DNA from: Lewinellaceae bacterium
GTDB lineage: Bacteria; Bacteroidota; Bacteroidia; Chitinophagales; Saprospiraceae
DNA length: 64,000 bases
Reading direction: 5' to 3'
Assembly: GCA_029976695.1 (NCBI GenBank)
Contig: JARQTN010000263.1
Location: 1 to 64,000 of the forward strand
Shown: piece by piece, positions 56,499 to 61,933 of the stretch
Layout of the letters: each line of letters starts with the position of its first letter
How positions within the stretch are numbered: the first letter of the stretch is position 1
Program-made: the position numbers and the translations under genes
Notes under the pieces: generated by a model
Databases searched by the model: none
What the model was told of the DNA's origin: nothing
What the model saw: only the letters and a program-made list of their open reading frames with translations

Positions 56499-56512
56499 AA
56501 TCTGAGAAGTTG

Positions 56513-57916
56513 ATGAAGTATGATGTTGTCATAATCGGATCCGGGCCCGGTGGTTATGTCTGCGCCATTCGATGTGCCCAGTTAGGGATGAAAACCGCCC
56601 TTGTGGAGAGATATAGTACCCTGGGGGGCACGTGCCTGAATGTCGGATGCATCCCTTCCAAGGCATTGCTTGACTCATCCGAACATTATCATGTCGCGGA
56701 GCACCGGTTTGAAGAACATGGGATCAGGTTGAAATCCCTTGAAGCGGATATGGCGCAAATGATACGCCGGAAGAACAAGGTAGTCGAACAAACCGTCAAC
56801 GGGGTAGACTTCCTGATGAAGAAGAACAAGATTGATGTGTATCACGGCCGCGGGTCCTTCGTTGATGCCCACACAATCGAGGTACACATGGAGAATGGAG
56901 ATAAGCATAAACTTGAAACCGGGAAAAGCGTCATTGCGACCGGCTCCAAGCCTATTGTACCCGCTTCTTTCAACTATGATAAAAAACGCGTCATCACGAG
57001 TACCGAGGCACTGAATATTGAAAAAGTTCCCGGCAGAATGGTGATCGTGGGCGGTGGCGTGATCGGCCTTGAGCTTGGATCCGTATTTGCCCGGTTGGGC
57101 ACGGAAGTTGAAGTTGTTGAATACCTGGACAGGATTATCGCAAACATGGACCGGGATTGCAGCAAGGAACTCATGCGCTCGCTGAAAAAACTGGGTATGA
57201 AATTTCACCTGAAGCATGAGGTGACTGGTGTAAAAGCATCCAAAACAAAAGTCAAGGTCAGCGTGAAGAAAAGGGACGCTGATGACAATTTCCAGATTGA
57301 TGCCGATTATTGCCTCGTCGCAATTGGCAGGAAACCCTATACTGAAGGTCTCGGCCTGGAGAATACGCGTGTCCAGACAGATGAAAAGGGGAGGGTGAGC
57401 ATCAACGAACATCTGCAGACCGATGAGCCTGACATCTTTGCGATCGGCGATGTGGTCAGGGGGGCAATGCTAGCGCACAAAGCAGAGGAGGAAGGCATCT
57501 TCGTTGCAGAATTCCTGAATGGTGAGAAGCCCGGGATTCATTATCACCTCATCCCGGGTGTTGTGTATACATGGCCCGAGGTCAGCGATGTCGGATACAC
57601 GGAAGATGAACTGAAGGAAAAAGGAATTGCCTATAAAGTGGGGAAATTCCCGATGAAAGCACTGGGAAGGTCGCGAGCCAGCATGGATACGGAAGGCATG
57701 ATCAAGGTCCTGGCCGATGCTGAAACAGATGAAGTCCTGGGTGTGCATATGGTCGGTGCCCGGGCAGCAGATATGATCATGGAGGCTGTATCGCTCATGG
57801 AATTCAGGGCTACGGCAGAAGACATGGCCAGGATCTCCCATCCGCATCCGACATATACAGAAGCAATCAAGGAAGCAGCGCTTGCTGCCACAGGAGACAG
57901 GCCACTACATATTTAG
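56513..57916 (+). CDS. lpdA: Dihydrolipoyl dehydrogenase
   Basis: The E3 flavoprotein (467 residues) of 2-oxoacid dehydrogenase complexes, reoxidising dihydrolipoamide with NAD. The redox-disulfide motif is GGTCLNVGCIPSKALL, the NAD site IVGGGVIGLELGSVF, and the C-terminal His-Glu pair is in HPHPTYTEAIKE. The ATG at 56513 follows a TTG that could extend it by one codon. Confidence 0.96.
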   Translation: MKYDVVIIGSGPGGYVCAIRCAQLGMKTALVERYSTLGGTCLNVGCIPSKALLDSSEHYHVAEHRFEEHGIRLKSLEADMAQMIRRKNKVVEQTVNGVDFLMKKNKIDVYHGRGSFVDAHTIEVHMENGDKHKLETGKSVIATGSKPIVPASFNYDKKRVITSTEALNIEKVPGRMVIVGGGVIGLELGSVFARLGTEVEVVEYLDRIIANMDRDCSKELMRSLKKLGMKFHLKHEVTGVKASKTKVKVSVKKRDADDNFQIDADYCLVAIGRKPYTEGLGLENTRVQTDEKGRVSINEHLQTDEPDIFAIGDVVRGAMLAHKAEEEGIFVAEFLNGEKPGIHYHLIPGVVYTWPEVSDVGYTEDELKEKGIAYKVGKFPMKALGRSRASMDTEGMIKVLADAETDEVLGVHMVGARAADMIMEAVSLMEFRATAEDMARISHPHPTYTEAIKEAALAATGDRPLHI

Positions 57917-57942: not shown

Positions 57943-58150
57943 GTGTATTCGTTCAATTGTTCGTGCATTCGGTTGTTCGCGTATTCAGTTATTCTGATCT
58001 GAACAAATGAACATGCGAATCTGCGCACATGCGAATAACTGAACCGACACAAATTCCTTTCGATGCTTCGTGCATTCAATTATTCGCGTATTCAGTTATT
58101 CTGAGGGAACAAATGAACATGCGAACAACAGAACAATTAAATAACTGAAC
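57943..58150. repeat. Two-copy structured intergenic repeat
   Basis: Between converging lpdA and rsmI, a ~90-base unit occurs twice with a 107-base period (from about 57960 and 58067). Both begin TTCGTGCATTC, continue TTCGCGTATTCAGTTATTC, then AACAAATGAACATGCGAA. Inside the first, TTCAGTTATTC pairs with GAATAACTGAA (58033-58043); in the second, TTCAGTTATT (58091-58100) pairs with AATAACTGAA (58140-58149). The left part is itself built of 16-base tandem units of the form ATTCrrTTrTTCGCGT. No coding frame is evident. Confidence 0.8.
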
Positions 58151-58205: not shown

Positions 58206-58877
58206 TTAACTTTCCGGACGATCGATCACAACAACAATCTCTCCTTTGAGCTTTCCCCGTGCTTCAAACTGGTTCCTGACCTCAAGAGCCGTCCCCCGGA
58301 TACATTCCTGGTGGATCTTTGTCAATTCGCGGCAAATACAAACCCGCCTTCTTTCTCCCAGGAACAGAACGGCTTCATCCATGCACCGGCCTATTTTATG
58401 CGGGGATTCATACAATACGATCGTGTCAGGCAGTGAGGCCAGGTAAGTCCAGCGTGTTTGCCTGCCTTTTTTTGCCGGCAGGAATCCTTCAAAGTGGAAT
58501 TTATCCATCGGGAAGCCTGACAGGACAAGTGCATTCACAAAAGCGGTGGGCCCGGGCAGGCAGTCCACTACAATGCCTTCCTTGATGCAGGCCCTGATGA
58601 GCAGGAAACCGGGGTCGGATATGCCTGGCATGCCGGCGTCCGATATGATTGCCAGGTCATTTCCTTCCTTGAGTTTTTGGATGATCCCATCAAGAACCTT
58701 GTGTTCGTTATGCGCATGAAAAGACCTTACCGGAGTCCGGATATCGTATGCCTGGAGCAGTTTGGCGGAAACACGGGTATCTTCGGCCAGGATCAGGTCA
58801 ACCTCATTCAGGATATCTACTGCCCTGAATGTCATGTCCTTCATGTGGCCTATTGGTGTCGGAACGATGTAAAGCAC
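58206..58877 (-). CDS. rsmI: 16S rRNA (cytidine(1402)-2'-O)-methyltransferase
   Basis: A SAM-dependent tetrapyrrole-methylase-fold enzyme of 223 residues modifying C1402 of 16S rRNA. Signatures are YIVPTPIGHMKDMTFRAVDIL, AEDTRVSAKLL, ISDAGMPGISDPGFLLIR and LPGPTAFVNALVLSGFP. It is somewhat shorter than the E. coli enzyme (286), lacking the C-terminal extension, as is common in this phylum. Confidence 0.94.
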   Translation of the reverse strand: MLYIVPTPIGHMKDMTFRAVDILNEVDLILAEDTRVSAKLLQAYDIRTPVRSFHAHNEHKVLDGIIQKLKEGNDLAIISDAGMPGISDPGFLLIRACIKEGIVVDCLPGPTAFVNALVLSGFPMDKFHFEGFLPAKKGRQTRWTYLASLPDTIVLYESPHKIGRCMDEAVLFLGERRRVCICRELTKIHQECIRGTALEVRNQFEARGKLKGEIVVVIDRPES

Positions 58878-59717: not shown

Positions 59718-59803
59718 CGCCGGTCGCTATTAAATGACACTTTTACCCCTGTCGCTGGCGTTGATTCAAGTGGGTGAAATGTATTTTCGAGGTCATGATA
59801 TTG

Positions 59804-61933
59804 ATGAACAGGCTACTCATATTTACCGGTTTTTTGATCTTTTCTTTTCAAGTTGGCTTGGGGCAGCCAATCAATGATGCATGTGTCAGTGCCATCCATA
59901 TCCCTTCAACTGAAGATTTTTGTTCCCCGATAGCCGGGTTTTCCAATGTCAATGCAACGCCGACCCCCGGCCTGGAGAATACCTGTCTGACGAACTTCAC
60001 CTCCGAAGTATGGTTTACGTTTATTCCCGTGACACCCGCGGCGATCATCCAGGTTTTTGGCGAAATCAATAACCAGGGTACACTGAATTCTCCTGTTGTC
60101 ACGGTATATGACAATTGCAATTCACTTGACCAGGTCGGGTGTAACAGTGCTTCGCTGGAGTCCAATATTGCCGAGGTCGTCGTCGGCGACCTGATCATCG
60201 GGCAAGTATACTACATTGCCGTTGACGGGCAATTTGGGGACCAGGGGACCTTTACCCTGTGCATCGACGGATTCATCCCTCCGCCTTCCCCGGAATCAGA
60301 CTGTGACAAAGCTGTGGTGCTTTGTGACAAGTCTCCTTTCTTTATCGAGTCACTTGTCGGGGCAGGGGACGATATAGACGAAGTGAGCCCGCAGGATTGC
60401 ATCCGGGAAGAGTTTGCCTCTTCGTGGTACAAATGGACTTGCGAGGAGTCCGGGACACTTGCCTTCACGCTGACGCCCAATGATTATATCCCCGGATTTG
60501 AGTCGGATGACCTTGATTTTGCGGTTTATGAGTTGCCTGGCGGCTTGAATGATTGTGGAGGTAAACGGCTGATCAGGTGCATGGCCTCCGGTGCCAACCA
60601 GAATGAACCGTTCAGTGCTTGGCAGATTTGCAATGGCCCCACCGGATTGAGTGAAAGCAGTGCGGATGCGACGGAACTGCCCGGTTGCCAGCCCGGGAAT
60701 GACAATTTTGTTGCTGCCATCAATATGGAGGCCGGAAGAAGCTATGCCCTGCTTGTCAATAATTTCAGCCAGTCGGGCCTCGGCTTCTCAATTTCGTTTA
60801 GCGGTACAGGTACTTTTTTGGGCCCGAGCCCTGCGTTTGACATCGAAGCTGTCCAGGCGTTTGAATGCGACAAGACCATCATCTTTACTGATGAATCCGA
60901 AGCGCTGACGGATTCTATTGTCAGTTATGCATGGAATTTCGGGGCAGGTGCAGAACCGATTTTTGCGAATACGACAGGTCCGCATAATGTCGTCTATGAA
61001 TCCTTCGGGGATAAAAGGGTTGCCCTCACCGTCGAAAGCTCGCGCGGATGCATTGTGACCGAGATCCTTGATATCTATGTAGAGCCTTGCTGCAGGGATA
61101 CAACGAATCTTGCCGTCGAAGCGACCGCACAGCCCCAGATCTGTCCCGAGACGAGTACAGGGGTCATTTTTGCGAACGGTATCGCTGGTGATCCTGGCTA
61201 TTCCTACAGTCTAAACGGGGTTGATTTTCAGCCCAGTACCACTTTTCCGGGGCTTGACCCGGGCGCATACACCGTGTATGTGCAGGACATCAAGGGATGC
61301 ACAAATGAGACAATGATCATCGTCGACGAAGCGGATGAATTCAGTGTGGATATTGGGGATACGATCTATGTGGACCTGGGAGAAACCGTCCCGATAACTG
61401 CCGTTTTGGTGCCCAACATCCTGCCGACAGGCGTCAGTTGGGATGTCACAAGCGATGCCTGCCCGTCTGACAGCGAGTTCCTCACCTTTAGCGGTGATCA
61501 GATCTCAGATCTGCTGAATCCCGTGGCCCTGCCCAGGGGGACGACCACCTTCACGATCGAGATCGTGAATGACGACGGGTGCATCACAACCGATGATGTG
61601 GTCATGATCACCAGTGGGGAAGGATCCGTATTTATCCCCAATATTATTACGGCAAACAATGACAATCTGAATGACCACCTGATGGTTTTTGGAGGCATTG
61701 CCGTGGATGAGGTAGAATTTTTCAAGGTGTTTGACAGGTGGGGCGGGCTTTTATTCGAAGCAAGCAATTTTTCCGCCGCCCGGGGGCAGGATGAAACCCA
61801 GTTTGGCTGGAACGGCAGCATCCCCGGGAGCAATGAGCTTGTCGCCCCGGGTGTGTATACCTATGTGGCGAAAGTGTATTTTGTAGACTGCTCAACCCAT
61901 ACATTTACCGGAACCGTGACTGTGATCAGGTGA
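59804..61933 (+). CDS. Large secreted protein with T9SS type B (gliding-associated CHU_C) tail
   Basis: About 709 residues with signal peptide (LLIFTGFLIFSFQVGLGQ). Two pre-peptidase-C-terminal-like beta domains (PINDACVSAIHIP...; ESDCDKAVVLCDKSPFF...), a PKD-like domain near 350-430 (FECDKTIIFTDES), a SprB-like repeat (GDPGYSYSLNGVDFQP), and the C-terminal type B sorting domain (GSVFIPNIITANNDNLND...VFDRWGGLLFEA). Such proteins form adhesins or surface layers. An ATG at 59795 is an alternative start. Confidence 0.9.
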   Translation: MNRLLIFTGFLIFSFQVGLGQPINDACVSAIHIPSTEDFCSPIAGFSNVNATPTPGLENTCLTNFTSEVWFTFIPVTPAAIIQVFGEINNQGTLNSPVVTVYDNCNSLDQVGCNSASLESNIAEVVVGDLIIGQVYYIAVDGQFGDQGTFTLCIDGFIPPPSPESDCDKAVVLCDKSPFFIESLVGAGDDIDEVSPQDCIREEFASSWYKWTCEESGTLAFTLTPNDYIPGFESDDLDFAVYELPGGLNDCGGKRLIRCMASGANQNEPFSAWQICNGPTGLSESSADATELPGCQPGNDNFVAAINMEAGRSYALLVNNFSQSGLGFSISFSGTGTFLGPSPAFDIEAVQAFECDKTIIFTDESEALTDSIVSYAWNFGAGAEPIFANTTGPHNVVYESFGDKRVALTVESSRGCIVTEILDIYVEPCCRDTTNLAVEATAQPQICPETSTGVIFANGIAGDPGYSYSLNGVDFQPSTTFPGLDPGAYTVYVQDIKGCTNETMIIVDEADEFSVDIGDTIYVDLGETVPITAVLVPNILPTGVSWDVTSDACPSDSEFLTFSGDQISDLLNPVALPRGTTTFTIEIVNDDGCITTDDVVMITSGEGSVFIPNIITANNDNLNDHLMVFGGIAVDEVEFFKVFDRWGGLLFEASNFSAARGQDETQFGWNGSIPGSNELVAPGVYTYVAKVYFVDCSTHTFTGTVTVIR

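Follow-up and report, generated by a model that had tools for sequence, protein, structure and literature searches.

The intergenic repeat between lpdA and rsmI belongs to a dispersed family, the copies of which are hairpin-capable units that run head to tail on an 8-base grid and are concentrated at gene 3′ ends, mostly convergent ones. We tentatively favor, as the likeliest role, a two-sided (bidirectional) gene-end structure, with the copies forming a non-coding, REP/BIME-like palindrome family. Copy number, convergent location, register of the arms, folding on both strands and likeness within arrays count toward this role; counting against it are the absence of compensatory change, the folding of chimeric arms, the lack of a U-tract and the unenriched location of 7/8-nt repeats elsewhere.

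In the window (the entire 64,000-nucleotide stretch that was analyzed), positions 57952-58149 comprise two head-to-tail units at a spacing of 107 bases, both of them imperfect hairpins. The features are as follows, where R1 is a covariance model built from 17 units, which match it by construction and include units 1 and 2.

56510..57916, plus strand: lpdA, dihydrolipoyl dehydrogenase, 3′ end toward the element (TIGR01350, 575.2 bits)
57952..58043, minus strand: unit 1, imperfect hairpin that R1 matches over its full length (79.9 bits, E 6.4e-14)
57952..57994, no strand assigned: unit 1 arm, five TTC-headed words on the plus strand (direct reading, and pattern matches at 57952-57994)
57995..58000, no strand assigned: unit 1 apex loop, 6 nt (direct reading)
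58001..58043, no strand assigned: unit 1 opposite arm, GAA-headed words (direct reading)
58044..58058, no strand assigned: linker separating units 1 and 2 (compared across loci by eye)
58059..58149, minus strand: unit 2, orientation as unit 1 (R1 76.9 bits, E 3.0e-13)
58102..58106, no strand assigned: unit 2 apex loop, 5 nt (direct reading)
58206..58877, minus strand: rsmI, 16S rRNA 2′-O-methyltransferase, 3′ end toward the element (TIGR00096, 230.4 bits)

The first-pass annotation had described two copies of about 90 bases with inverted arms, lying between the 3′ ends of lpdA and rsmI. Both copies were confirmed (57952-58043 and 58059-58149), the direct repeats D1 (46 nt, 87% identity, spacing 107) and D2 (46 nt, 78% identity, spacing 106) agree with that description, and the convergent gene pair is borne out by TIGR01350 and TIGR00096. 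The two-unit element is not due to chance. The 19-base core TTCGCGTATTCAGTTATTC has three window matches at up to 3 mismatches (0.03 in shuffles); TTCRN4TTCRN4TTC has 11, of which 10 fall inside the element (0.35 in shuffles). Compared with shuffles, the two-unit stretch folds far more stably on the minus strand (z -6.05), and to a lesser degree on the plus strand (z -2.10). Linkers similar to that between the units, set between CGAA and CGG, were seen by eye in other arrays. Elsewhere in the window, 59774-61933 encodes a large protein with a weak match to a T9SS type B sorting domain (21.3 bits, cut-off 35).

The building block is the 8-base word TTC-R-N-N-T-R. Each unit carries five TTC-headed words in one arm and GAA-headed words opposite, in frame across an apex that measures 5–6 nt at the window locus and mostly 7 nt at other loci. 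Since the base period is 8, the 16-base tandem unit proposed earlier is two words. Among 201 words counted in 31 units, where the TTC head is fixed by definition of the count, position 4 is a purine in 185, position 7 a T in 170 and position 8 a purine in 196; the commonest words are TTCAGTTA (29), TTCGCATG (24), TTCATTTG (24) and TTCGCGTA (17). Over the whole genome, a four-TTC pattern matched 47 times on one strand and 25 times on the other, and the same pattern read backward 1 and 0 times. The hairpin pattern gave 30 matches at period 8 and none at period 7 or 9. Thus, the strict short period of LSSR, heptamer and octamer repeats is present. The long run of near-identical direct repeats that is also an LSSR trait was not detected in the element at a threshold of 22 of 32, and the words vary; at that threshold the unbiased own-genome sample, window included, yielded one period-8 segment, on contig C78 (L202).

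With R1 at E values up to 0.03, the family comprises at least 31 distinct units, which occupy 20 places spread over 19 contigs, so that the copy number across the genome is that of a dispersed family. This hand tally is a lower bound, since scoring covered only 150 of the 1156 first-look candidates; it leaves out an incomplete copy with which C68 ends, the C76 locus (E 0.79, yet with three clear arrayed units) and BLAST or pattern matches on C20, C257 and C234. Copies often form tandem arrays, several of which reach contig ends, suggesting that the true copy number is higher. Every multi-unit array keeps a single orientation throughout, and units are more alike within one array (82%, 13 pairs) than between loci (70%, 240 pairs), in line with duplication on the spot. 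Outside this genome, the same words were found in the genome_contigs collection on one contig only, CALMSX010000030.1 from an uncultured Bacteroidetes bacterium, and the exact core TTCRCATGTTCATTTGTTC has no match in viral contigs, where a phage origin was sought. The best Rfam hit at the window, with E 0.33, falls far short of the gathering threshold and is not credible, and no hit reached that threshold in 13 other stretches of the genome.

Gene context was examined at 21 loci (the 20 places plus C76), 11 of them two-sided and 10 one-sided, with genes called by a simple codon-usage script instead of a standard gene finder. All 11 two-sided loci lie inside gaps between called genes, nine between convergent genes and two between tandem ones, as against 5 convergent, 32 divergent and 50 tandem among 87 background gaps of at least 100 nt, sampled from this genome without bias (9/11 vs 5/87 convergent, Fisher 6e-8). 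Counted by single flanks, the gene 3′ end points toward the element in 27 of 32 cases vs 60 of 174 in the background. An earlier tally of 8/10 convergent took in C20, a locus not recovered by R1, and predated the detection of C68:4380 and C38. The clustering between converging genes that had been proposed as a check is therefore seen.

In alignment A1, with a 43-pair stem, 73.7% of cells are paired and sliding the partner by 1–3 columns gives at most 43.5%; the arms are thus in register. Single units fold similarly on both strands (means of -23.4 and -24.4 kcal/mol, 23 units), which is what a two-sided element needs. Compensatory changes between the arms, however, are absent: 8 pairs of A1 changed on both sides where shuffles give 10.1, and covariation scores 0.093 vs 0.108. 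Three columns are near-constant mismatches (14:80 in 17/17, 30:64 in 16/17 and 37:57 in 14/17 units). Stem pairing stronger than chance was rejected, as chimeras that combine arms of separate loci fold at least as well as the units themselves; indeed, the 23 units folded worse on all 5000 permutations, and a weaker trend of the same kind was seen in the 18 units of clear orientation. We do not claim the active avoidance of self-pairing that the first permutation test indicated: with one unit per locus the mean z is about 1 to 1.7, and the signal is inflated because C78, C85 and C252 have doubtful orientation. No U-tract is found at the hairpin ends, and thus no classical U-tract terminator; one terminator-like site lies on a local stem within unit 1 (0.5 in shuffles). 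These data support the view that the copies are capable but imperfect hairpins, not a conserved RNA fold. Of the two findings that, taken together, the first-pass annotation had named as speaking against it, namely occurrence only here and no compensatory change, the second is true and the first false; its interpretation is partly supported, by copy number and convergent clustering but not by compensatory change, and the terminating, stabilizing and mobile roles that it suggested are candidates.

How might such an array act? If transcribed from either side, each unit would form a stem of similar strength, and the array would thus serve as a bidirectional 3′-end structure. It might slow or stop readthrough into the opposing gene, and might protect the message end against exonucleases. 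Growth of the array would proceed by tandem duplication of the ~107-base units and also through 8-base words being gained or lost as wholes.

The main rival, which comes close to the two-sided role and which we regard as a serious but somewhat less probable account, is a neutral or selfish simple-sequence repeat, in which 7–8-nt words multiply by polymerase slippage and template switching and are tolerated only between gene 3′ ends, where their cost is lowest. The absence of covariation fits this account, as does the rhythm seen beyond the family. An anchor-free period scan with no fixed word was run over ~400 kb each of two other genomes, G227, where the stretches were evenly spaced, and G015, where they were drawn from contigs with a prior match, so that this sample is not fully blind. 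Intergenic segments peaked at period 7 (21 in G227, 31 in G015) and period 8 (18 and 20), vs 0–4 segments at periods 5, 6 and 9–13; the 4 and 8 segments at period 14 plausibly reflect a doubled period 7. Four stretches of E. coli (200 kb) gave no short-period intergenic segment. The own genome, at the same strict threshold, yielded 4 period-7 segments and a single period-8 one, few because its words vary. In both samples the period-7 segments include separate intergenic repeat families with their own words (L221-L260); an inverted partner lies close by for 18 of 21 in G227 and 4 of 31 in G015. Also in keeping with neutrality, words change from genus to genus, and MacGregor 2015 (PMC4679880), citing Mrazek 2007, names heptamers as the most frequent class of long simple repeats and relays a proposal that the polymerase footprint, perhaps through slippage, is the cause. 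The idea that 7/8-nt repeats in general favor convergent gaps is unsupported: in the unbiased samples of G227 and G015, 4/28 and 3/38 lie between convergent genes, which is no enrichment. Two facts about the present family are harder to reconcile with neutrality. First, among gaps of at least 100 nt, the tandem ones outnumber the convergent ones tenfold (50 vs 5), yet they hold only 2 of the 11 two-sided places. Second, unlinked loci have loop length, word frame and linker in common, a recurrence that would not be predicted from slippage alone.

Hairpins built from other words occur elsewhere in the Bacteroidota. At E 0.01, R1 is positive in 5 of 80 genomes of the taxonomic family, the own genome included, and the other four (G015, G035, G477 and G486) hold, by eye, hairpin-like 8-base arrays with words of their own. 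In a 395-genome sample of the phylum, the TTC hairpin is common only in the own genome (G000), with one match each in three others. The backward-read pattern, intended as a control, was positive in 24 of 395 rows (hand count), 13 of them among the 23 of genus g75, which is probably Flavobacterium, as suggested by Flavo-1 RNA matches in three g75 stretches. These matches are real hairpins of an AAG word, AAG-NNN-C-N, in which position 7 is C in 83/88 words and position 8 is A or T in 73/88. Their polarity is retained: of the 7 genomes searched, G409 has 2 matches to the CTT-first form and the other 6 have none. Among 40 AAG sites in the 40 stretches examined, which cover all but a few of the pattern sites, none lies in a called gene; 13 are convergent, 24 tandem, 2 divergent and 1 undecided. 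With background gaps of 6 convergent, 50 tandem and 20 divergent, the exact AAG-word hairpins are enriched between convergent genes (13/39 vs 6/76, Fisher 0.001). At L151:2487-2675, a Flavo-1 RNA (RF01705) starts 48 nt past an AAG-word hairpin. G024, from the same taxonomic family as the own genome, has 47 and 39 matches to the backward-read control pattern, and another word family may exist there.

A third account, which we consider distinctly improbable, is that the array acts at the DNA level, the word being the binding site of a protein such as a nucleoid protein or topoisomerase where the supercoils of convergent transcription meet. The constraint on word positions 4, 7 and 8 without covariation speaks for it; however, no candidate protein was identified, and the words of other genomes share mainly spacing and little sequence.

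If the two-sided reading holds, the Bacteroidota, on whose repeats we found little literature, gain a REP-like class measured out by a so far unexplained 8-base ruler, together with a candidate bidirectional gene-end signal that can be tested. The arrays, several of which end contigs, may account for some assembly breaks. The parallel families with different words offer a way to ask whether the period reflects replication slippage or a DNA-reading protein. A wider reading, unlikely in our judgment though a shade less so than the protein-binding array, would be a phylum-wide Bacteroidota class of word-built hairpins, in which a machine measures 7–8 bases, each lineage has its own vocabulary, and step, inverted arms and gene-end position are common through the same writing or reading process.

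In the open-licence literature we found no description of this repeat or of octamer-word hairpins in Bacteroidota; the accessible portions of a Porphyromonas gingivalis repeat paper (PMC5771137) and a Flavobacterium psychrophilum transcriptome (PMC9723704) do not describe such hairpins. The REP-candidate table of RepRanger 2025 (PMC12306157) gives counts in the thousands for two Flavobacterium genomes, and AAG hairpins may therefore be among its entries, though not named as such. Like intrinsic (Rho-independent) terminators, the element is a hairpin at gene 3′ ends; unlike them, its hairpins measure ~93 nt, form tandem arrays and end without a U-tract. It resembles Flavo-1 RNA (RF01705) as a structured Bacteroidota repeat, but no Rfam match reached the gathering threshold in the 13 own-genome stretches, and in G258 Flavo-1 adjoins the AAG hairpin instead of lying on it. 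Cyanobacterial STRRs are grouped with long simple sequence repeats (LSSR), which our family resembles in its intergenic tandem words of 7–8 bases, a kind also reported from a few Bacteroidetes. Heptamer repeats of TAACTGA, a string contained in GAATAACTGAA of this family, are described in the available text of MacGregor 2015 (PMC4679880) from Beggiatoaceae, Cyanobacteria and five Bacteroidetes, as plain direct repeats that in the Guaymas Maribeggiatoa genome lie mostly just upstream of start codons; the present words, unlike these, vary, make inverted arms and face gene 3′ ends.

The closest likeness is to REP/BIME. These, too, are dispersed, clustered, imperfect palindromes outside genes, as are the 31 units at 20 places here, and the part of Di Nocera 2013 available (PMC3733652) places REPs mainly between unidirectional and convergent genes. 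It is very unlikely that the units are REP-type elements mobilized by a Y1 transposase (RAYT), for although they are dispersed imperfect palindromes with conserved mismatches (the three mostly unpaired columns above), the conserved GTAG/CGTC tag is missing (GTAG or its complement within 20 nt of 3/31 units, CGTC or its complement of 2/31), and the sole Y1_Tnp match in the genome, G000:C151:9711-10034, is borderline (23.2 vs a 23-bit cut-off), on a contig with no element detected, leaving no linked RAYT. Furthermore, BIME units alternate in orientation according to the accessible text of PMC2817692, whereas the units here run head to tail in each array, with arms on an 8-base grid. Because three tested defining features of REP/BIME are lacking, we do not file the element as REP/BIME. 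Nevertheless, REP/BIME is what it appears to work most like, and we read it as a putative REP/BIME-like bidirectional 3′-end element of new design.
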